Origin: Oscillospiraceae bacterium
GTDB lineage: Bacteria > Bacillota > Clostridia > Oscillospirales > SIG627
Length of the DNA: 64,000 bases
Reading direction: 5' to 3'
Assembly: GCA_015063985.1 (NCBI GenBank)
Contig: SVTC01000009.1
Location: 1-64,000 of the forward strand
Shown: positions 383 to 48,653 of the stretch, piece after piece
Layout of the letters: the number at the start of each line of letters is the position of its first letter
Position numbering within the stretch: the stretch's first letter is position 1
Notes under the pieces: generated by a model
What the model saw: only the letters and a program-made list of their open reading frames with translations
Databases searched by the model: none
Told to the model about the DNA's origin: nothing
Translations under genes and position numbers: made by a program

Positions 383-2716
383 TCATTGGATAACGGATAC
401 AGAGCAGACCTTTATGCGGGGCTCGGCGTCGGAGCTTTCAAGGAGAGTGATGCGGGAGAGAGTCTTTTCAGAATCTGTAAGGAATTCAACCGTGTAGAGT
501 GACATATCCTCACCGAAGGGAGATTTCCAATGCTTGGAGCCGCAGAAAAAGTCTGTGGTGTAGCCGTTGTGACGGTAGAGGGGATTTTTGCAAATTGAGT
601 GCTGACGGCGATTGTAGTAGCCGATGTTCAAGGAGTTGTAAACGGGATGAACGTCCACCGTGCCGTCACTGTATTCGAAGCGGTATTCGGCAATGAGCTG
701 AGGATCGCTCCAAGGCTTGCGTACCAGATAACGGGTACACATATGCTCAATGCAGATGCTTTTAACCTTTTTATCAACGTTTATGCAGGGCATAGGAAGG
801 TATTTGGGAGGAAGCTCCACCTCCTCGTGTAAAAGCTCGGTGGATACAGCGCCTTTTTCAAGGGACGGGAAGGAGAAATTCTCCAGCTTTTCTCTGAATC
901 GCGGCATTTTTGCAGAAATGATCTTGTCGTATACCAAGGTAAGATCGGGACTGTAGCCTCTGCTGAGAAGCATCTGGGCGGTGAGAGCCATATCGAAGAA
1001 CTTGCCTTCTTTGGCAAGGCCTACGGGATTGGTGCCGACCCAGCCGGAGATCTGACCGCCGACTATACCCTTTTGATTGATTCTCTTGCAGTATCTGGGG
1101 AAATGGCTTGAATAAAGGTTTCCGAAGGCAACCTTGAAGCCCTTGTCCAAGAGATTTGTTTCTATATCCTTGTCGGTATGGAAATACCAGATGAAATCCA
1201 GAAGAAGAATATCCTTGGGGATCATATCGATAGCTCTGGGGGTGCGATATTTTGTGACGGGCTGGAGCATATCGGCCCACATCATCATTTTCAAGCCTCT
1301 TGCTTTGAGATAATCGTAGATCCTTTGAACGTCCTGAGCAAAAAGCACTGCGGGATCCTTATCCTTGCAGATCTTGCAAACGCCGATCTCGTATACCTCG
1401 TCGTGTCCCATATGAACGTATTCCACGGGGCGGAATACAGCTATTATTTCATCAAGGAGATCGAAAAGCAACTCGTAGCTTTTGGGATTGGACGGACAGT
1501 AGCAGTGGCGGTAGAATTTTTCGGGGCGCATATCCTCCACTCTGGTGTCTATCTCGGAGCTAACGGTATTTTCCTCCACTTCGGCTATCTCCGGATGGGC
1601 GTAGGTCATAAATTGAACGTGGCCGAGACTTTGAACCTCCGGAACGGGCTCTATGGCGAAGGATCTGACGTAGTCCACGAAATCCGCAACGCTCTTCTGA
1701 CTCACGGTCTTGCCGTTGCCAACCGAGCCGTGGGGAAAGGGAGGGAGCTCCTTGCGCTTACCCTTTGCGTAGGCATCGGCTGTCATTTGGTTTATTTCCG
1801 GATGACTCTTGTATTCAAAGGCGCCCGCTAATTCAACAATAAGCATATTGTATCCCAATGGAGAAATGTAGTACTTTATAAAGCGCTTTGCAAACTCCAT
1901 TTCGCTTTCACCGGGAAGATAAATGTGAACGCCTCTGAAGGGGTTTGCGGGCGAATCGCTAAGCTCGGCGCAGCGCACACCTTCGTCGGAGAAAAGCTTA
2001 ACGAGAGCTTCTGCAGCCATAACAAAGCCTCTTTCGTCGGATGCCTTGAGCACTACTCCGTTGGGACGAACTGACACTGTATATGCGTTGTAGGAAAGGG
2101 AGGAGTCTGAAATAAACTCCACAAAGCCCTCTGACGAGGGAAAGGATACGACGCCGCTTTCCTCAAAAAGCTTTTCGCAAAATACCGCCGCAGCCTTTTG
2201 GGAAGGCTCGTTGCAGGTATGGGATGCCAGCCTTTCAAAGCTTACGGTGCCGTTGGCATAGGTAAGCCTTTGGGGAATTGGGAAAATACTGTCATCAAAA
2301 TCCACCGCGCCGAAAATGGATGCACATTTAACCTCAATGCCCGAAAAATCGGTCACTATTCTGACAATAAGCTTGTCAGTGATAACACCTGCCTCAAGCT
2401 CGAGGCAGGTACTGTTGCAAAAGGCCGAGCTTTCGGCCCTATGGCAGTGCAATACGGTGGAATCGCTGCCGTCGATAAGAGTAACGGACCTTATTCCCGA
2501 TCCCGCAAGCTCGAGCTTCAATACACTTACAAAGGCTTTCTCGGAAAGGTCGAAATGTATATCAGCGCCCATATCCCAAACGTTGTCCCACTTTATTTTC
2601 AAGGTTCTGTTGTCAAATAGATAGCCTGCCTTTTCCAAGGGAAGCTGTTTTTGTCCTTCGCATTGAGTAACACGCTGGGCAATATTCAAAAAATCCGTAA
2701 GACGTCCTAATCTCAT
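383..2716 (-). CDS. Glycoside hydrolase family 20-like protein (beta-N-acetylhexosaminidase-like)
   Basis: Translation contains a GH20-like catalytic region (VEYVHMGHDEVYEIG; MMMWADML). ATG at 2716 is preceded by TAAGGAGAAT, so it is preferred over the track start at 2788. Confidence 0.75.
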   Translation of the reverse strand: MRLGRLTDFLNIAQRVTQCEGQKQLPLEKAGYLFDNRTLKIKWDNVWDMGADIHFDLSEKAFVSVLKLELAGSGIRSVTLIDGSDSTVLHCHRAESSAFCNSTCLELEAGVITDKLIVRIVTDFSGIEVKCASIFGAVDFDDSIFPIPQRLTYANGTVSFERLASHTCNEPSQKAAAVFCEKLFEESGVVSFPSSEGFVEFISDSSLSYNAYTVSVRPNGVVLKASDERGFVMAAEALVKLFSDEGVRCAELSDSPANPFRGVHIYLPGESEMEFAKRFIKYYISPLGYNMLIVELAGAFEYKSHPEINQMTADAYAKGKRKELPPFPHGSVGNGKTVSQKSVADFVDYVRSFAIEPVPEVQSLGHVQFMTYAHPEIAEVEENTVSSEIDTRVEDMRPEKFYRHCYCPSNPKSYELLFDLLDEIIAVFRPVEYVHMGHDEVYEIGVCKICKDKDPAVLFAQDVQRIYDYLKARGLKMMMWADMLQPVTKYRTPRAIDMIPKDILLLDFIWYFHTDKDIETNLLDKGFKVAFGNLYSSHFPRYCKRINQKGIVGGQISGWVGTNPVGLAKEGKFFDMALTAQMLLSRGYSPDLTLVYDKIISAKMPRFREKLENFSFPSLEKGAVSTELLHEEVELPPKYLPMPCINVDKKVKSICIEHMCTRYLVRKPWSDPQLIAEYRFEYSDGTVDVHPVYNSLNIGYYNRRQHSICKNPLYRHNGYTTDFFCGSKHWKSPFGEDMSLYTVEFLTDSEKTLSRITLLESSDAEPRIKVCSVSVIQ

Positions 2717-2794
2717 TACAATTCTCCTTAGCAGTTTTTCACAGTATATCACATAAATAAAGAAAAGTAAAGGGGCATTGTCATACACTATGGG

Positions 2795-2823
2795 TTGACA
2801 AAGCCGCTTTTTGATAGTATTAT
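2795..2823 (+). promoter_or_regulatory. Sigma-A type promoter of the EEP-family gene
   Basis: TTGACA - 17 nt - TATTAT. Confidence 0.6.
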
Positions 2824-2850
2824 ATAGGTATTAATAGTAGGAGAAACGTT

Positions 2851-3597
2851 ATGAAGGTACTTAGCTTTAACATTCGTTGTGCAGACGATCCCAACGGCCA
2901 TTCCAAGCAGGAGCGCGCCCCCAGGATCAAAAGCATTATTGATCAATATGACCCCGATCTTATGGGATTTCAAGAGGTGACCGAGAAGTGGCTCGGATAC
3001 ATAGAGGCGGATTATCTTGAAAAATACGGTATGTATTCTCTTTTCAGATGCTCTGATCCCGACAGAGAAGCCGCCACCATCTTCTATAAGAAGGAGCTTT
3101 TTGAATTGAAGGATTGCTCCACCTTCTGGTATTCCGATACCCCCGACGTTCCCAGTAAGGGCTGGTGCAGCTGGGGTCATTACAGAGTGTGCAGCTGGGC
3201 ATTGCTTACCGAAAAGGCTTCGGGAAAGGACGTGCTTTATCTGAATACCCACTACGGCTTTTCTGATAAGTGCCAGCTTGATTCCACTGAGCTTGTTTTT
3301 AAGTTTTTGGAAGAAAAGAAGGCCGACAGAGTGATATTCACCGGCGACTTCAATATGACTCCCGATACTCCCGCATATAAGCTTATGACTGAAAGACTCA
3401 AGGATGCCAATGCTCTTACCACGAAGGATAAGGAGAGGACCTTCCACGGATATACCACCGATAAGGGCTGCGTGATAGATTACTGCTTTGTGGACGGAAA
3501 GCTTACAGTGGAATCATCTCAGGTAATAAGGACTACTTATGACGGAAAGTATCCCTCCGACCACTATCCCGTTCTTACCGAGATAAGCTTGAACTGA
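2851..3597 (+). CDS. Endonuclease/exonuclease/phosphatase (EEP) family protein
   Basis: Motifs VLSFNIRCADD, LMGFQEV, LNTHYG, FTGDFNMTPD, IDYCFVD, SDHYPV are typical of the family. Confidence 0.88.
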   Translation: MKVLSFNIRCADDPNGHSKQERAPRIKSIIDQYDPDLMGFQEVTEKWLGYIEADYLEKYGMYSLFRCSDPDREAATIFYKKELFELKDCSTFWYSDTPDVPSKGWCSWGHYRVCSWALLTEKASGKDVLYLNTHYGFSDKCQLDSTELVFKFLEEKKADRVIFTGDFNMTPDTPAYKLMTERLKDANALTTKDKERTFHGYTTDKGCVIDYCFVDGKLTVESSQVIRTTYDGKYPSDHYPVLTEISLN

Positions 3598-3600
3598 TAT

Positions 3601-4971
3601 TCAATTTTTCAAAAAATCCATATAGCTTTGATTCTTCGGCTCCTTGAAAAAGGAAGCATAGACCTTTGTTGTCGGTAGCTTCTTCTCGCAGTAGGGAGTC
3701 TGAGGTAAAAAGGGAAGGCTCATTATGCCATATCTTAAAGCATCGGGAGCGTGAGTCAGCTCGTGGGGAGTTGAGCACACGTCCTCCGCAACGCAAGGAT
3801 CAAAGCAAAGCCTCGGCAGGGTTCTAATAAGATTCGTGCAGGCGGGGAAGATCTTCAAAAAGGCTTCTCCGTCTTTCTTTGCGGCAAGAAATTCTCTGAG
3901 TCTGCGCCATCCGGCTATTCTTTCGTTGTCGGCGGGAACAAGCCCCGTAAGTCCCGAGCTTCTAAGAATATCAAAGCCCGTTTTGCCGCTGTCTTGCCTT
4001 CTGCCTCCAAGGTCGGGGCTGGCTGCTATGTATCTGAGCTTGTCATCTCCGTTTGCCTCGGTGATCCTGCTTGCAGCGTCAGAAAGGATAAGATCCGGCA
4101 TATAAAGCTCTCTGTATACCGCAAGAGTGCTGTGGTCGGGCGGGTATGCAAGCCAAAGGCAGGCGGTCATATCAAGACCGTAGTCAAGGCAGGCAAATCT
4201 TGTCCAGCTCTTGGGGATCTCGAAGGGCTCGCAAACGTGTATGCTTCTGTCAAACTCACCAAAATACTGCCCCTCAAAGGCATCCCAATCCCCGTAAAGC
4301 ATTGCCCTTTTTCTCAGCTCCGGCAGACTTTGCAGGTTTTTCAGGTACTCGGGGTTGTTTTCCATAAGGTAGAGGTTGTCAAAGACCGTCGAGGGAATGA
4401 AATCGTAATCCTCCTCGTCCTCCCCTTCGCGATAGTCTCTGTCGATAAAAAGCCTTTTTATCCAGGAGTGCCCCACTCCACCGGGATTGCAGGTAAAATA
4501 CATTCTCGGGACGAATCTTTCCTTCATCATTCCCGACAATCTGCAGCATTCGGTCATTGCGGTGTATTGGCTTTCGGTAAACTGTGTTGCCTCCTCCATA
4601 CCTATCACCTCGTAGCTTTGCCCTTGATACTGCAAGGTGTCGGCATCGTCGGAAAGGTAGCCCAGCTTGATCCTGCTTTGGTTGGGAAAAAGAAACTCCT
4701 TTGTGGATTCCTTGTAGGTGGCTATGCCGTTTAATATACGGCGAAGCGGATTTATGTGGTTTTCCCTAAGCTCGGGATAGGTCCTTCTTAATAAAAGTAT
4801 CTGTATACCCGAATATTTCAGTGCCAGAAGCACAAGCTTTGTTCTCATTGCAAAGCTTTTGCCACCGCCTCTTGCCCCTCCGTAGGCAATTCGCCTTTTT
4901 TGCGAAAGGAAAAAGCGCTCCTGCGGAGGATAGGGCTTTACCGAATCCAGGTAATGTAGTAGTTTTTTCAA
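3601..4971 (-). CDS. Phage terminase large subunit-like protein (TerL)
   Basis: Walker A-like YGGARGGGKS, downstream acidic region and RNase-H-like nuclease region (FACLDYGLD). The track ORF runs to 5004, but AAAGGAGGAATT-TTG at 4971 is the best start context. Confidence 0.85.
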   Translation of the reverse strand: MKKLLHYLDSVKPYPPQERFFLSQKRRIAYGGARGGGKSFAMRTKLVLLALKYSGIQILLLRRTYPELRENHINPLRRILNGIATYKESTKEFLFPNQSRIKLGYLSDDADTLQYQGQSYEVIGMEEATQFTESQYTAMTECCRLSGMMKERFVPRMYFTCNPGGVGHSWIKRLFIDRDYREGEDEEDYDFIPSTVFDNLYLMENNPEYLKNLQSLPELRKRAMLYGDWDAFEGQYFGEFDRSIHVCEPFEIPKSWTRFACLDYGLDMTACLWLAYPPDHSTLAVYRELYMPDLILSDAASRITEANGDDKLRYIAASPDLGGRRQDSGKTGFDILRSSGLTGLVPADNERIAGWRRLREFLAAKKDGEAFLKIFPACTNLIRTLPRLCFDPCVAEDVCSTPHELTHAPDALRYGIMSLPFLPQTPYCEKKLPTTKVYASFFKEPKNQSYMDFLKN

Positions 4972-40988: not shown

Positions 40989-42602
40989 ATGAAAAAGCTA
41001 TTTTTAATATTATTTGTCTTTACGGTATCATGTATTATGATAACGGGTTGCAGTAAAACGACGACTAACACAACCCATATGGTTGATCTCATAGCGGATT
41101 TAAAGGAAGTAGAAAACGTTACCGATGGCGACGTGATTATCGTCAAGGGCTATAACAGCGTTGGCGACGCCGGTGCGGGTGAGTTCGTATATTACAGTAA
41201 TTACGACTCCGAGGAAGACGGCGGTGTCGTATTCAACGCAAAAGACGGCGGTAAATATGTTCGTATCTGCTCGCCGACTCAACGCCACGTTGCCTGGTAC
41301 GGAGCAACGGCAAACGATAAAAACGATGACTCTTCCGCAATCAGAGCCGCGATCAGCAGCCTTAAAAACGGAGGAACCGTTAATTTTTCAGGCGGAGATT
41401 ATTACATCGCCGAGCCTTTAGTCTTAGACAGCTCGGCAAACAACATAAAGCTGATCGGTAAGGGCGGCTGGTATTCAACAAAGATCAACGCCTTATCGGA
41501 AATGGACACAATGATCCACGTTAAGGGTGTCGACGGAATTACCATTGACAGCATTCACATAAACGGCGGTTTATTGGCAAAAAACACTCTTATCCTTGAA
41601 TCGATAACAAATTCAGTCATTAAAAACTCCAGAGCGTTCCAGTTTACAAAGTACGGAATCAAGCTTACAGCCGGTGAATCGGGACCGTCTAAAAATAACA
41701 CCTTTGATCAGCTTAATGCAATAACAACACACAATAAAAACCCGATATACTGTTTTTATATAGGCGGTGATTACAGCACGGGAAACATTGTCGAAAATTG
41801 CACTTTCTCGACGTGTCGTTTTGACTATCACCAGAGCCCCAATTCAGTTGCTTTAACCGTTGAATACGCACAGATGCTTAGTTTCTACAGGTGTCACTTT
41901 GTGGGATACAATGAGCGTTCCGACGGACTTCGGTTGAATGCACGCAATAACAACGGCTATCCCGGACAGCTGAACGTTTACGATTGCTCGATTACCGACA
42001 TTGTTGTTGATGAGAGCAACAGTTCCAAAATCGGCAACGTAATGCTATTCGGCCACGGAACCTATGACAACGAAGTAATTCCCGTTAACGAAAATATCCA
42101 TACCATAACCGATGAAGGATCGATATTCGGTTATCAATTGGGCGACGGAACCAAATTACCGATCAAAACCGCCCCTTTCCAGACAAACACAAACGGTGAA
42201 TACGCTGCTCACAATCTCAAGACCGAAATAAAGAATATGGGTATACGTTTCAACAACGGAGGTTTATTCACCGGCGGCTCCATCAGACTTGCAACGTACA
42301 GCGGATCTCCCGGATGTGAGCTAAAGCTCTCTGTGTATAAATGGAACACAGACTTCAAAACAACAATAAGCGGCGAGGAATTAAGAAGCTGCATTTTCAA
42401 GGAGTTCGAGGATAATTCCATGGTAGACTTCAAATTTGAAGAACCCCTCGGCGAAGGAGAATATCTGGTTTTACTCCACGATGGCAAATCCGACGGTTAC
42501 GGTGTTGGTGTTTGGACACAAAATCCGGGACAGGGTATAAAAACATTTACAGACGGCAAAGATGCCAACTTCGGCATTTGCGGTATTTTCAATATTGAGT
42601 AA
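40989..42602 (+). CDS. Lipoprotein with tail-spike/pectate-lyase-like beta-helix domain (copy 2, C-terminal extension)
   Basis: Lipobox VSCIMITGCS; VGDAGAGEFVYYS..GGKYVRICSPTQRHVAWYGATANDKNDDSSAIRAAI. Confidence 0.8.
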   Translation: MKKLFLILFVFTVSCIMITGCSKTTTNTTHMVDLIADLKEVENVTDGDVIIVKGYNSVGDAGAGEFVYYSNYDSEEDGGVVFNAKDGGKYVRICSPTQRHVAWYGATANDKNDDSSAIRAAISSLKNGGTVNFSGGDYYIAEPLVLDSSANNIKLIGKGGWYSTKINALSEMDTMIHVKGVDGITIDSIHINGGLLAKNTLILESITNSVIKNSRAFQFTKYGIKLTAGESGPSKNNTFDQLNAITTHNKNPIYCFYIGGDYSTGNIVENCTFSTCRFDYHQSPNSVALTVEYAQMLSFYRCHFVGYNERSDGLRLNARNNNGYPGQLNVYDCSITDIVVDESNSSKIGNVMLFGHGTYDNEVIPVNENIHTITDEGSIFGYQLGDGTKLPIKTAPFQTNTNGEYAAHNLKTEIKNMGIRFNNGGLFTGGSIRLATYSGSPGCELKLSVYKWNTDFKTTISGEELRSCIFKEFEDNSMVDFKFEEPLGEGEYLVLLHDGKSDGYGVGVWTQNPGQGIKTFTDGKDANFGICGIFNIE

Positions 42603-42612
42603 GGAGAATCAA

Positions 42613-43827
42613 ATGATGCAAAACAAAAAAATCAAAACCTCTGCACTGTTTACAGCAGTTCTCCTTATTGTGATGACGGTATTTGCAATATTTAATATCG
42701 GTGCGAAAGACAACCAAATGAATAGCGTTAAGTCATATATCGTAGAAAACATTGACCAAATGAGATCGTTGGTTATAAACGATACCGATGCCTCAATTGT
42801 TGTTAAAGGCTACTACACGGCAGGTGATGGCGGCGGAGGTACGTTCTTTTGGGACAAAAATTCCGCTTCGGAGGAAAACGGCGGAACGATATTCAAAAAC
42901 ACCAACGATGAAATCGGAAGATACATCCGCCTATGCGACAATGAAAATCTTAACCTTAAGTGGTTTGGTGCAAAAGGCGACGGAGAACACGACGATACGC
43001 TTGCCTTCCAAAACGCTCTCAAAGCCTTGCCCGATCCGGGCGGTTCCGTCAGCGTTCCCAACGGCACCTATAACGTCAGCGAAACGATCATCATCGGCAA
43101 CGGCAATATGGGTTCTCAAGCTTCAACAAAAAAAGGAATACATATTCTCGGTGACGGAAATGCAAACATTCGAGCAGTTGAAAAAATGAACAACGTCATC
43201 GAAGTAAAAGGTATGATGTATGATCTGCTGTTGAGTGACCTTACAATAGATTGCAACAAGAACACACAAACAGGCGTAAGGATGACCGCTTTCATCGGAT
43301 GCGCAATAAGAAATTCAAATATAGTTAACTTCACAAAAAAAGGACTGGTTATAATGGGCGGAGGCGACCCCTGCGGCAACTACAACACCTACAATCAGTT
43401 TGAAAATCTTAACGTGCGCTCCGATATCGATGGCGCTGTGGGCGTATATTTCGACGGCGACTTTAAAGCCATCAATGATACCTGGCTTACGACTATGACA
43501 AATTGCAGCTTTGTTGCAACAGGCTATAATTCAATAGGTGCACATTGTAAATTCGTCGATTCGATTTCGCTTTATCAATGTACCTTTACGGGAACCAAAC
43601 ACGGCGTGCTTTTTGATGCCATCGGCAATAGCGGTTATCCCAGCGGAATAGGATTTTACGATTGCTCCGTTTCAAGTGTCGGAGTTCTTGAAAGTGCATC
43701 CGAAACAGTACGCAAACAGTGGTTCTTGGGATTCAAAACAGATAACGGAGAGGTAATACCCAACGATTACCGTTTCTTCGGAATCACAGACCAAGGAAAA
43801 CCCTTCTATATGGAGATCGTTTATTAA
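42613..43827 (+). CDS. Membrane-anchored tail-spike/pectate-lyase-like beta-helix protein (copy 3)
   Basis: GDGGGGTFFWDKN..GRYIRLCDNENLNLKWFGAKGDGEHDDTLAFQNAL; N-terminal hydrophobic anchor. Confidence 0.8.
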   Translation: MMQNKKIKTSALFTAVLLIVMTVFAIFNIGAKDNQMNSVKSYIVENIDQMRSLVINDTDASIVVKGYYTAGDGGGGTFFWDKNSASEENGGTIFKNTNDEIGRYIRLCDNENLNLKWFGAKGDGEHDDTLAFQNALKALPDPGGSVSVPNGTYNVSETIIIGNGNMGSQASTKKGIHILGDGNANIRAVEKMNNVIEVKGMMYDLLLSDLTIDCNKNTQTGVRMTAFIGCAIRNSNIVNFTKKGLVIMGGGDPCGNYNTYNQFENLNVRSDIDGAVGVYFDGDFKAINDTWLTTMTNCSFVATGYNSIGAHCKFVDSISLYQCTFTGTKHGVLFDAIGNSGYPSGIGFYDCSVSSVGVLESASETVRKQWFLGFKTDNGEVIPNDYRFFGITDQGKPFYMEIVY

Positions 43828-43998: not shown

Positions 43999-44075
43999 TG
44001 GCGCGCCGGACACGATTCGAACGCGCGACACCCAGAATCGGAATCTGGTGCTCTATCCTGCTGAGCTACCGGCGC
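43999..44075 (-). tRNA. tRNA-Arg(CCG)
   Basis: Minus strand GCGCCGGTAGCTCAGCAGGATAGAGCACCAGATTCCGATTCTGGGTGTCGCGCGTTCGAATCGTGTCCGGCGCGCCA; loop TTCCGAT gives anticodon CCG; CCA is encoded. Confidence 0.96.
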
Positions 44076-44109: not shown

Positions 44110-46863
44110 TTATTCGGACATACCCGGAACCGTTACCGCAATTACCCACAGTATCTGATATACCAAGGCAAACACGGTGGTAATGGAGGTCATTCTTCCC
44201 ATAAAACCAAGGAAGATGCTTACAAACACACCCACCAGAACACTGAGGAACTTGACCAGAAGATTTATACTTATAAGCCTCTTGGCTTTATCGCAGTAGA
44301 TAAAGGTCATAAGCATATTGAGTATTCCCGTGGTGCAGACAAGTCCGCTATCGCCGTTTTCGCTTGCGGCGACCTCCTTTGAAGCTCCCGCGGTCTTCAT
44401 AACTCCCACGGGATAATTCTTGTTTCTCAGAATGCACTTTATAAGATCGTTATCAAGGTTGGGATCGCAGGTCTTTATACATACGCAGGTTCCCGTTTTG
44501 TAAAGCCCTCTCATCACTCTCTCGAACTTTCCGTTCACGGCATATCTGATATATATCTTTGCGGCGATACGGTCGCCTATTGCCATATACATTATCCTGC
44601 CGACGGAATTCTCAAAGGGCTCGTCGATATCGTCGTTCACGTAGCCGAAATCATAGGAAAGCATATAGTCCTTGTTGCCTACGAATACCTCCTTACCCTC
44701 CAGCTTAGCGCAGATTCCGTCACCTGTATTTTCCAGAATATCAAAGTTATCGGAAAGATCGAACATTCCGGAAAGAGAATCGCTGAACACTCTGCAAAGA
44801 GGACCGCCCACCTTGCCGAATATCTTCGCACAGTAGAAGATGACCTTATCCAAACGGAAATCGGAATAAGTACGGATGCTTGTAACTCTTACCTTTTCCG
44901 CAGGGAAAAGCTCGGTATCGTTAAAGGAGATAACGCTTGCGGCACTGTAGTCCTCAACCGCGGTAGCTCCGATTATGGCACTGTCTCTTTTGGCGCATTT
45001 TTTAGTGAATTTTCCCAAGGGCATAGCCACCGCAAAAAGTCCGCAGGCGGGCAGACCGAAGATCATTACCGTCACAAAGGATCTTGCCGCCTGAGAAAAG
45101 CCGCCGGAAAAGCTGTAAAAGGCAAAGATCAATGCCGCCGCCAACACCAGCCATACCGCCGCATTATATGCTCCGCAGAGCTTCGCGGGCGCCTTGGTAC
45201 GGGAAAAATAATTATTGACAAATTTTGTTTTTTCTACAGTAAAAATATCCGGATTCTCGGGAATATGCTCCTTAAGAAGCTCGTATTCGCTACTGTCGGT
45301 ACCAAGCTTTCTGACAATGAACTTTTCTTTGTTACTGGATACCACCTTAAAGCATCGGTAGGAGCGGCGCTCATCCATAAAGTGATAAACACTGTTCAAA
45401 AAGCCCCACAGACATCCCACTGCCGAGAAAAGCATTATATTTTCACTGTTAACGTCGGTAAAGAACAGGCTTATCTGATATATCAGAACAGAGAACATTG
45501 CAACCGCCGTAACGGAATCCGGGTCCGCCTTTCCTTTGAAAAGCTTTTTCAAGCCGGAAACTATATTACCCCACACAAGGGCACAGCTTACCACAAGGAT
45601 CTGAATATCCACAAGCAAAAGTATTATGCCGTATTCACCCGGCTGAAGGAATACCGGATGGGGCAGGAAGCTATCGTAGCAGGATGCGGAAAGATAGAAG
45701 CTTATAAGAGTAAGCAAGAAGCCCCACAGAGCATTTACCAGCATCGAGGCACTCTTGTTTTTGATACCCTCGGTCATTTCCTCAGCCAGAGCCTTCTCGG
45801 TAAATTCCTCCTGCTTTTCGGAAGGCTTTACCGCCTTTACGTCGGCAACAAGCTCATCGTTAAACAGATCGTTCTCACTGATCTCCTCATCTGCAGGAAG
45901 AACTCCCTCGTTTTCAAGGATCTTCTTTACAGCCTCGTTATCTATCTCGGAAATATCAAATTCCTTGGTCTTGTCCAAGGACTCTGCGATCTCCTCGGGA
46001 GCCTCGGTCCTTTCTCCGAAGATCTCCTCCAGTGAGGGAAGCTCTCTCGTTGCCCCCATATCCTCGGATACGGCACCGCTGTCCTGAGGCACACTGTCCT
46101 CCACTGCAGGCTCCTCCTCAAGATCCACTTCTTCGATGACGGGCTCTTTTTCCTCGATTACAGGCTCCCTCACAGCCTCAGGCTCTAAACCGTCGGATGC
46201 GCTCTCTTCGGATGCTTCGATCTGTTCCTCGGAAGCGCTCTCTTCGGGCTCAAGCTCCTCGCCATCTGCGATAAGAGACTCTAAAAATGCGGCGTCAAGC
46301 ACAGGAGCATCGTGAGACTGCTCGTCGGAAACCGCTTTTTCCGCCAAAGCCTCCTTTTCCTTTGACATTCTCGCCAAGGAAAGCTTCAGCTCCTCCTCGT
46401 TATACACTCTGTCAACGCTGATATCCTCGTCAAAGACTCCAAGACTGTCGGCATAGGGGTCATCCTGAACGTTGCCGGAAGCCTTGAGCTTCTTTTCCAT
46501 CTTCAGACGCTTTTTCTCTTCCTTCGCTCTTTCTTTTTCAAGCCTCTTTTTTTCTTTTTTCAGCTTTTTATCGTCACTGAAGGCCTCAAGAAGCATTCTG
46601 TCGGTGTCGTTTATACTGAAATCGTCTGCGGTCTCGCGGGTATTGTAGACTGCATCCACAATACTGCCGACCTTTTCCTTGGAACGCCTTCCTTGCTTGC
46701 CCGTTCCCACGTAATTATCAAGAGAACGGTTCTTGTTGCGGCTTATTGAAACGGTATCCTGAGACTGCTCGATAGCTTCGGCAGACTCGGCAGAAAGCTT
46801 GTTTACCTGCTCCTTGGGCTTTTCGGCTTTGGGACCGTTTCGCTTTATCTTGTAAACTGCCAT
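44110..46863 (-). CDS. P1B-type ATPase-like membrane protein, predicted catalytically inactive, with long charged N-terminal extension
   Basis: FKGKADPDSVTAVAMFSVLIYQ, VMIFGLPACGLFAVAMPLGKFTKKCAKRDSAIIGATAVEDYSAASVISFNDTELFP align by eye to heavy-metal P-type ATPases with the CPC and DKTGT positions replaced. Confidence 0.7.
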   Translation of the reverse strand: MAVYKIKRNGPKAEKPKEQVNKLSAESAEAIEQSQDTVSISRNKNRSLDNYVGTGKQGRRSKEKVGSIVDAVYNTRETADDFSINDTDRMLLEAFSDDKKLKKEKKRLEKERAKEEKKRLKMEKKLKASGNVQDDPYADSLGVFDEDISVDRVYNEEELKLSLARMSKEKEALAEKAVSDEQSHDAPVLDAAFLESLIADGEELEPEESASEEQIEASEESASDGLEPEAVREPVIEEKEPVIEEVDLEEEPAVEDSVPQDSGAVSEDMGATRELPSLEEIFGERTEAPEEIAESLDKTKEFDISEIDNEAVKKILENEGVLPADEEISENDLFNDELVADVKAVKPSEKQEEFTEKALAEEMTEGIKNKSASMLVNALWGFLLTLISFYLSASCYDSFLPHPVFLQPGEYGIILLLVDIQILVVSCALVWGNIVSGLKKLFKGKADPDSVTAVAMFSVLIYQISLFFTDVNSENIMLFSAVGCLWGFLNSVYHFMDERRSYRCFKVVSSNKEKFIVRKLGTDSSEYELLKEHIPENPDIFTVEKTKFVNNYFSRTKAPAKLCGAYNAAVWLVLAAALIFAFYSFSGGFSQAARSFVTVMIFGLPACGLFAVAMPLGKFTKKCAKRDSAIIGATAVEDYSAASVISFNDTELFPAEKVRVTSIRTYSDFRLDKVIFYCAKIFGKVGGPLCRVFSDSLSGMFDLSDNFDILENTGDGICAKLEGKEVFVGNKDYMLSYDFGYVNDDIDEPFENSVGRIMYMAIGDRIAAKIYIRYAVNGKFERVMRGLYKTGTCVCIKTCDPNLDNDLIKCILRNKNYPVGVMKTAGASKEVAASENGDSGLVCTTGILNMLMTFIYCDKAKRLISINLLVKFLSVLVGVFVSIFLGFMGRMTSITTVFALVYQILWVIAVTVPGMSE

Positions 46864-46882: not shown

Positions 46883-47668
46883 TCAGTTAAGTTCGCTTCT
46901 GTTTAAAAGGATGCGGTACAGTATTACCGCTCCGGCACAGGAAACGTTAAGTGAATTTACCCTGCCCTTCATAGGCAAGGACACTATATGATCGCTTTTT
47001 TCCTTTAAAAGCCTGGATACGCCCGATTCCTCCGAGCCCATTATCACCGCCAGAGGAATGTCGAAATCGCATTTCTCGTAGCTTTCTCCCCCTGCCTCGC
47101 AGGCGAAGATCCAAAGCCCCTTTTCCTTGAGCTCCTCCACGCAGGATGCAAGGTTCGATACCTTGCAAAGAGCCATATGCTCGATCGCTCCCGCCGATGC
47201 CTTGATAGCGGCAGAGGTTATAGGCGCACTGCGCCTCTTGGGAAGTATTACTCCGTGTACTCCCGCACCCTCGCAGCATCTGATGAGCGCTCCCAGATTA
47301 CCGGGATCGGCAATTCCGTCGCAGATCACGATAAAGGGCTTTTCTCCCCTTTGTGCGGCGATCTCAAGAATGGAATCTATATCGGTGTATTCAATATCGG
47401 CACTTATCGCACAGACTCCCTGGTGGTTTCCTCCGCCGCTCATAGCGTCAAGCTTTTGTCTTGCCGCCTCAAGCACGGGAATCTTTTTCTCAAGACACAT
47501 CGCCTCAATGAGCTTTACGCTTCCCTCTCTGGGCCCTCTTAAAACAAAAACCTTTTCAACGGTCTTGTCCGATCTGAGAAGCTCGATGACGGGATTCCGC
47601 CCAAAAACGCAGTTTTCATCCGCACTGCGCTGAGGCTGTCCTTTTGTTCTTTCTGCCATACTCGTCAC
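46883..47668 (-). CDS. rlmB: TrmH/SpoU family rRNA methyltransferase (RlmB-like)
   Basis: VFGRNPVIELL; VICDGIADPGNLGALIRCCEGAGVHGVILPKRR; VIMGSEESGVSRLL; LNVSCAGAVILY. Confidence 0.92.
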   Translation of the reverse strand: MTSMAERTKGQPQRSADENCVFGRNPVIELLRSDKTVEKVFVLRGPREGSVKLIEAMCLEKKIPVLEAARQKLDAMSGGGNHQGVCAISADIEYTDIDSILEIAAQRGEKPFIVICDGIADPGNLGALIRCCEGAGVHGVILPKRRSAPITSAAIKASAGAIEHMALCKVSNLASCVEELKEKGLWIFACEAGGESYEKCDFDIPLAVIMGSEESGVSRLLKEKSDHIVSLPMKGRVNSLNVSCAGAVILYRILLNRSELN

Positions 47669-47888: not shown

Positions 47889-48653
47889 ATGCCTTTTGAA
47901 GTAATCACAAGCCGCCAGAACGCCCGTATAGTTTTGGCAGCATCACTGAAAAACAAAAAACACAGAGACCAAACGGGTCTTTTTTGCGCCGAGGGCAGAA
48001 TGTTGCTCTCGGAAGCTATTTTATCGGGCATATACCCCAAAACGGTTTTTGCCACTGAGGAAAGCCTTCCCTTTATTCCCGAGATCTGCCATAAAGACAC
48101 CTGTATCGTTACCGATGAGGTCTTTAAAAAGATATCCAACGACGACTGCCCCGAGGGGGTAATGAGCATCTTCGAAAAATTCACCCTCCACGCTGACGAG
48201 CCCTCCACGGCGATAGTCCTGGAAAACCTCCAGGATCCGGGAAACGTAGGCACGGTGATACGGACAGCCGCCGCTTTGGGATGCGAGCTTTGCGTGTGCG
48301 CATCCTGTGCTGACGTCTTTAACCCCAAGACCCAAAGATCCGCTATGGGAGCCTTATTCCGTATGCCCGTGGAGATCTGCTCCGACAGTGAAAAGGCAAT
48401 ACTCTCGCTGAAGGAAAGAGGCTTCAGGGTAGTGGGCGCCGCTCTTGATAAGAAAAGTCTTCCCGTTTCGGAGACTGACCTCAGCGGAAAATGCGCGGTG
48501 GTGATCGGAAACGAGGGACACGGACTGACCGAAAAAGCAAAAGAGCTCTGTGATAATCTGAGCATCATTCCCATGAAGGGTATGGAATCACTTAACGCTT
48601 CGGTTGCCGCTTCACTTTATATTTGGGAAATGCTGAAAACACGGGAGAAGTAA
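47889..48653 (+). CDS. TrmH family RNA 2'-O-methyltransferase
   Basis: VLENLQDPGNVGTVIRTAAALG; VVIGNEGHGLTEKA; PMKGMESLNASVAASLY. Confidence 0.93.
   Translation: MPFEVITSRQNARIVLAASLKNKKHRDQTGLFCAEGRMLLSEAILSGIYPKTVFATEESLPFIPEICHKDTCIVTDEVFKKISNDDCPEGVMSIFEKFTLHADEPSTAIVLENLQDPGNVGTVIRTAAALGCELCVCASCADVFNPKTQRSAMGALFRMPVEICSDSEKAILSLKERGFRVVGAALDKKSLPVSETDLSGKCAVVIGNEGHGLTEKAKELCDNLSIIPMKGMESLNASVAASLYIWEMLKTREK

Follow-up and report, generated by a model that had tools for sequence, protein, structure and literature searches.

A stand-alone pseudo-P1B-type ATPase conserved across an order of gut bacteria

Pseudoenzymes are well known among kinases and proteases. For P-type ATPases, FUPA family 24 of Chan et al. 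2010 reportedly comprises prokaryotic fusions that join a type I (heavy-metal-type) half without function to a working type II ATPase. Among eukaryotes, Plasmodium PfGCbeta carries a degenerate P4-ATPase domain, and in the Toxoplasma homologue the P4-ATPase domain has been discussed as having a regulatory role (PMC6592433). Here, a 64,000-nucleotide stretch of DNA (contig SVTC01000009.1, positions 1 to 64,000; the window) is found to encode, at 44110-46863, a 917-amino-acid (aa) protein that descends from the P1B heavy-metal P-type ATPases and belongs to an order-wide family that has lost the motifs of a pump.

The family resembles P1B ATPases (CopA/ZntA; TIGR01525; 3rfu) in its domain order, its eight predicted helices, a profile match running through M3/M4 and the phosphorylation (P) and nucleotide-binding (N) domains, and its retention of the TGD Asp as well as of structural Pro and Gly. 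In contrast to P1B ATPases, it is without DKTGT, TGE, GDGxND, CPC and HP, its actuator domain is halved, a long acidic tail stands where the metal-binding domains would be, and its gene sits behind rlmB. It shares with FUPA24 a non-functional heavy-metal-type ATPase half in bacteria; in FUPA24 the dead half has a functional type II ATPase as its fusion partner, whereas the present protein is stand-alone and carries a disordered tail. PfGCbeta is eukaryotic, of P4 type and fused to guanylate cyclase domains, whereas the present family is bacterial, of P1B type and stand-alone, with a reduced actuator domain and a deleted Mg loop. Literature searches on bacterial pseudo-P-type ATPases returned nothing relevant beyond the degenerate P4 domains of apicomplexan cyclases (PMC6592433), and Pfam, NCBIfam and literature searches gave no named family or account of a stand-alone, near-universal bacterial pseudo-P-type ATPase; no Pfam or NCBIfam model fits the family above its cut-off. 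As far as these searches show, the stand-alone order-wide pseudo-P1B-ATPase is a pseudoenzyme not previously described.

P1B ancestry and loss of the pump motifs

The gene and the parts of its product are laid out as follows.

44110..46863, minus strand: pseudo-P1B-ATPase gene, an uninterrupted open reading frame of 917 aa with an ATG start
45817..46863, minus strand: acidic cytoplasmic tail of low complexity at the N-terminus (aa 1-349), net charge -45, without a Pfam domain
46012..46035, minus strand: SLEEIFGE, aa 277-284, the window's only near match to the tail motif [ST][LVI][DE][DE]I[LFM]x[ED]
45184..45366, minus strand: place of the actuator (A) domain, aa 500-560, ~60 aa, without TGE (profile and merged alignments)
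45043..45054, minus strand: LPAC, aa 604-607, occupying the CPC metal site in the membrane (merged alignment)
44908..44922, minus strand: NDTEL, aa 648-652, at the DKTGT site; family motif [x/D]D-x-[DE]-x-[FY]-P (alignments)
44524..44874, minus strand: nucleotide-domain-like region, aa 664-780, with the His of SEHPL replaced (GGPL) and GxG and VGN partly kept (alignments, Foldseek)
44458..44472, minus strand: TCDPN, aa 798-802, an altered TGD motif (alignments)

The P1B ancestry is carried by several comparisons of profile and fold. The single window sequence matches TIGR01525 (ATPase-IB_hvy, NCBIfam) at aa 570-800 with E=6.4e-6; searched individually, 46 of the 65 members match this model. 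A profile built from 65 orthologues (A1) matches Legionella CopA (LpCopA, PDB 3rfu) with E=6.5e-32, and further matches are to HMA4 (7e-21) and Archaeoglobus CopA (1e-17). An hhalign comparison of the family against nine canonical pumps, taken from the same family of bacteria, gives a probability of 99.9 (E=4.5e-31, 501 columns). Modelling the P/N region with AlphaFold2 gave a weak structure (predicted local distance difference test, pLDDT, 41.1), yet the first 38 PDB matches that Foldseek returned for it are all P-type ATPases, the best with E=4e-5. These searches recover the relationship that the original prediction had drawn by eye for the C-terminal half; its placement of GKADPDSVTAVAMF at the M1/M2 'NMDVLVALG' segment likewise agrees with the profile alignments.

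Could an unrelated polytopic membrane protein resemble a P-type ATPase by chance? In favour of this, the window protein has no significant Pfam family. This explanation is nonetheless ruled out, with essentially no probability left to it, by the LpCopA and hhalign scores and by top Foldseek matches that are P-type only. In a tree with P-type ATPases the family forms a single clade on a long branch (Shimodaira-Hasegawa-like approximate likelihood ratio test, SH-aLRT, 100); judged by its sequences, it has a single origin.

Motif tallies given out of 65 come from a merged alignment of the nine pumps with 65 family members, and those out of 72 or 73 from a larger orthologue set. TGE is gapped in 63/65 members, and the A domain shrinks from ~125 aa in LpCopA to ~60 aa in the family. 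The GDGxND Mg/hinge loop is deleted in 65/65. At the DKTGT site, Asp is kept in 20/65; Lys has become Asp in 52, Gly has become Asp or Glu in 58, and the last Thr has become Val, Ile or Leu in 59. Pro alone survives of CPC (59/65), its two Cys being replaced by L/T/V/A and by L/V/A/F. In HP, Gly has taken the place of His in 48/65, with Pro kept in 48, and the motif III Lys of the haloacid dehalogenase (HAD) fold is lost. Within GxG the last Gly is kept in 62/65 and the first in 14/65, and the Gly of VGN in 71/73; the Asp of TGD is kept in 64/65, its Gly being replaced in nearly all. Taken in aggregate, these tallies show a split in which structural residues are kept and the catalytic, metal and nucleotide residues are gone.

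With the phosphorylated-Asp motif, the TGE of the actuator, the Mg loop (GDGxND), the metal ligands of CPC and the His of the N domain all gone, the protein is almost certainly unable to pump. The original prediction had called it non-pumping on the strength of LPAC and NDTEL, both of which are present and are placed at the CPC and DKTGT sites by profile alignments, and of a GDGxND motif that seemed absent and is in fact deleted rather than merely divergent. The losses go further than that list: TGE is gapped, the nucleotide-site His is replaced, and the condition is order-wide.

Conservation and selection across the order

DKTGT occurs at the aligned site in 0/73 orthologues, so the losses are fixed and this is not a decaying allele. 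The sole regular-expression match, to DKTGS in L054, falls in the tail, away from the phosphorylation site. For the whole protein, the ratio of nonsynonymous to synonymous substitution rates (dN/dS, Nei-Gojobori) is 0.036-0.128 in ten close pairs, and most of these pairs show a lower value for the core than for the tail. Because purifying selection is this strong, the protein has been retained, as had been proposed. A decaying metal-pump pseudogene in one genome would account for the degenerate motifs themselves and for nothing else; with losses common to all 73 orthologues, this range of dN/dS, new motifs that are fixed and a gene present order-wide, that explanation is ruled out and its probability is negligible. 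With catalytic residues lost clade-wide under purifying selection, the protein shows the pattern of a pseudoenzyme.

When the order was searched with the A1 profile, 275/295 genomes had a match at E<=6e-60 among the matches listed, the remaining 20 being no better than 4e-36, and 220/226 good genomes were positive among the matches listed; the weaker family matches in these counts are not each confirmed as full-length. In samples of the class and phylum, full-length A1 matches (300-684 bits, columns 2-578) came from genomes of the family's own order only. The ~520 other class and phylum genomes gave no full-length family match, their scores of <=129 bits over columns ~216-493 belonging to ordinary pumps. 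The family is thus order-wide, and its losses are not peculiar to the window genome.

The six good genomes without the gene need not reflect gene loss. In one (G047), the contig breaks off right after rlmB, with the first part of the family tail still present, so the gene is cut there by the contig end. The other five are also without a true RlmB match; for these, loss of both genes together or a gap in the assembly is no less likely than loss of this gene. A named member occurs in Subdoligranulum variabile TSDC17.2-1.1 (OY725837.1, frame 1214-4081), encoding 955 aa, scoring 429 bits to A1 and lying directly after rlmB. Since this species, placed in Oscillospiraceae by NCBI, is a carrier, the order is probably Oscillospirales (GTDB). 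The record itself (L159, 116 kb), holding rlmB and the pseudo-pump, is labelled 'plasmid: 3'; it may be chromosomal DNA under a wrong label.

The family appears to belong to the core genes of this large order of gut bacteria, and it is strongly constrained; a knockout should therefore show a phenotype. Such genes should not be tallied as metal pumps in annotation.

Candidate role at the membrane

Since the pumping parts are lost but selection is strong, the protein must do some other job at the membrane. We infer, leaning modestly towards it, that this job is that of a non-pumping, membrane-anchored scaffold or sensor. The family keeps a predicted eight-helix P1B-like membrane core together with a degenerate P/N cytoplasmic module. 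In the proposed mechanism the core would anchor the protein, and the P/N-like module would bind a protein or small ligand through a face that includes its conserved D-x-[DE]-x-F-P and T-x-D-P-N loops. The long, acidic, disordered tail would bring a soluble partner to the membrane, perhaps aided by the amphipathic [FY]S[LVI][DE][DE]ILxE present in many members' tails.

The tail matches the several-hundred-residue, Glu-rich N-terminus first described by eye. It is 18% Glu and 9% Asp, has no Cys and looks disordered, and no Pfam domain was found in the N-terminal tails of seven members searched. An amphipathic motif near the N-terminus, [FY]S[LVI][DE][DE]ILxE[FYVA] (for example FSLDDILAEF), occurs within the first 80 aa of 29/71 tails, against 1.0 expected and a maximum of 4 in 300 shuffles, a count that partly reflects shared ancestry rather than independent events. 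In its strict form, within 745,000 aa of open frames, the motif is confined to family members, the truncated L142 frame being a member too. SLEEIFGE of the window protein lies far from the N-terminal position that the motif has in other members and is an uncertain counterpart of it.

In the membrane region, the eight predicted helices fall into groups of four, two and two, separated first by a short and then by a large cytoplasmic insert, a P1B-like placement. Family-average hydropathy is predicted to peak near aa 387, 422, 460 and 484, across a double-width stretch at 569-611, and near 878 and 907. The conserved eight-helix core and its fixed intramembrane Pro and Gly residues (P605 in 67/73, P615 in 66/73, and G437) would suit a protein that uses the old transport helices as a passive channel or as a carrier not driven by ATP. 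Against this, the family's membrane helices contain no Cys, His, Met or acidic position with conservation of >=60%, and the CPC ligands are without a substitute, which makes transport of this kind improbable.

The N-like region bears on a second alternative, in which the protein senses nucleotides or metabolites at the membrane: the N-like part would bind an adenine nucleotide or another ligand and the P-like module would signal to a partner, with no phosphorylation. Consistent with this, the region is the best-kept cytoplasmic part, as the GxG and VGN glycines show, and the Foldseek matches stem from it (TMt 0.65 to the HMA6 N-domain). Damage to the classical ATP site speaks against it, because the adenine-contacting His is mostly Gly and the first Gly of GxG is kept in few members. 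Such a sensor is accordingly a less favoured but serious candidate, on the unlikely side.

Two new motifs replace the lost ones in the P-like module. In the first, D-x-[DE]-x-[FY]-P, Asp stands at 648 or 649 in 71/73 members, an acid at 651 in 66/73 and Phe or Tyr at 653 in 71/73, followed by P654; in the second, T-x-D-P-N, D800 is present in 71/72 and N802 in 67/72. HAD hydrolases use a DxD motif, and the acidic loop together with T-x-D-P-N could be imagined to restore a HAD-type phosphatase or phosphotransferase, that is, an active non-canonical enzyme. The frequencies of the motif I Asp, the acid at 651 and D800 speak for this proposal. It is, however, a poor prospect: the Mg-binding motif IV (GDGxND) is deleted in every member of the merged alignment, the motif III Lys is lost, and motif I is only partial, the position of its Asp at the old DKTGT site shifting by one between subfamilies.

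Several observations weigh against the proposed scaffold or sensor. With an Asp at the first or second DKTGT position in 71/73 members, some chemistry there is conceivable. The N-terminal tail motif is missing from the first 80 aa of the window protein and of most members of family f1. The AlphaFold2 models are poor (pLDDT 35.6 for the membrane core and 41.1 for the P/N region), and the adjacency to rlmB may be positional only.

A second pseudo-pump family and the neighbouring genes

The window genome also encodes a P2-type ATPase homologue (L008; G000:C40:16185-19757, minus strand) without DKTGT, TGE or GDGxND. Orthologues were found in 7/7 sampled genomes of the window's family, at 624-1230 bits versus <=382 elsewhere, and four f19 genomes hold relatives with the same motif losses (members of this family are L008, L120-L124 and L153-L158). 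In the tree, six of these copies form one clade inside P2 (SH-aLRT 100). The P2-derived pseudo-pump has so far been seen in families f1 and f19 only. Both families comprise P-type ATPases without DKTGT, TGE and GDGxND in the same bacteria; they differ in that this one derives from Ca/cation-type P2 ATPases and forms a separate clade. The f19 copies (L153, L154, L155 and L158) have AFPP[KR] at the old DKTGTLT loop, which resembles the [DE]-x-[FY]-P of the P1B-derived family at the same site; the two may possibly be convergent.

More tentatively, and short of an even case, bacteria of this order may have made P-type ATPases into non-pumping membrane hubs at least twice, from a heavy-metal pump in the order's ancestor and from a cation pump in some families. 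The first of these would be nearly universal, lie behind rlmB and often bear a tail motif that recruits a partner. If true, scaffolds or sensors derived from P-type ATPases would constitute a new class, linked to some core process in these gut bacteria.

Two features flank the pseudo-pump gene.

46883..47668, minus strand: rlmB, 23S rRNA G2251 2'-O-methyltransferase, a conserved neighbour order-wide (TIGR00186 match)
43999..44075, minus strand: tRNA-Arg (CCG), just downstream of the pseudo-pump gene

The rlmB gene lies 19 base pairs (bp) upstream on the same strand, and its product scores 213 bits to TIGR00186 (cut-off 160). It occupies the -1 position on the same strand in 50/61 loci, and its cluster touches 53; the gap to the pseudo-pump is -4 to 182 bp, with a median of ~20. 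Several exceptions are contig ends, or an antisense frame seemingly picked by greedy choice of open reading frames. From this layout, rlmB and the pseudo-pump look like a two-gene transcription unit. PADLOC matched no anti-phage defence model.

At 47889-48653 the window holds a second SpoU/TrmH-type RNA methyltransferase, under the RlmB cut-off, back to back with rlmB and followed by dprA. At 40989-43827, two adjoining genes encode secreted, probably beta-helix (pectin-lyase-like) proteins, the second of which weakly matches rhamnogalacturonidase.
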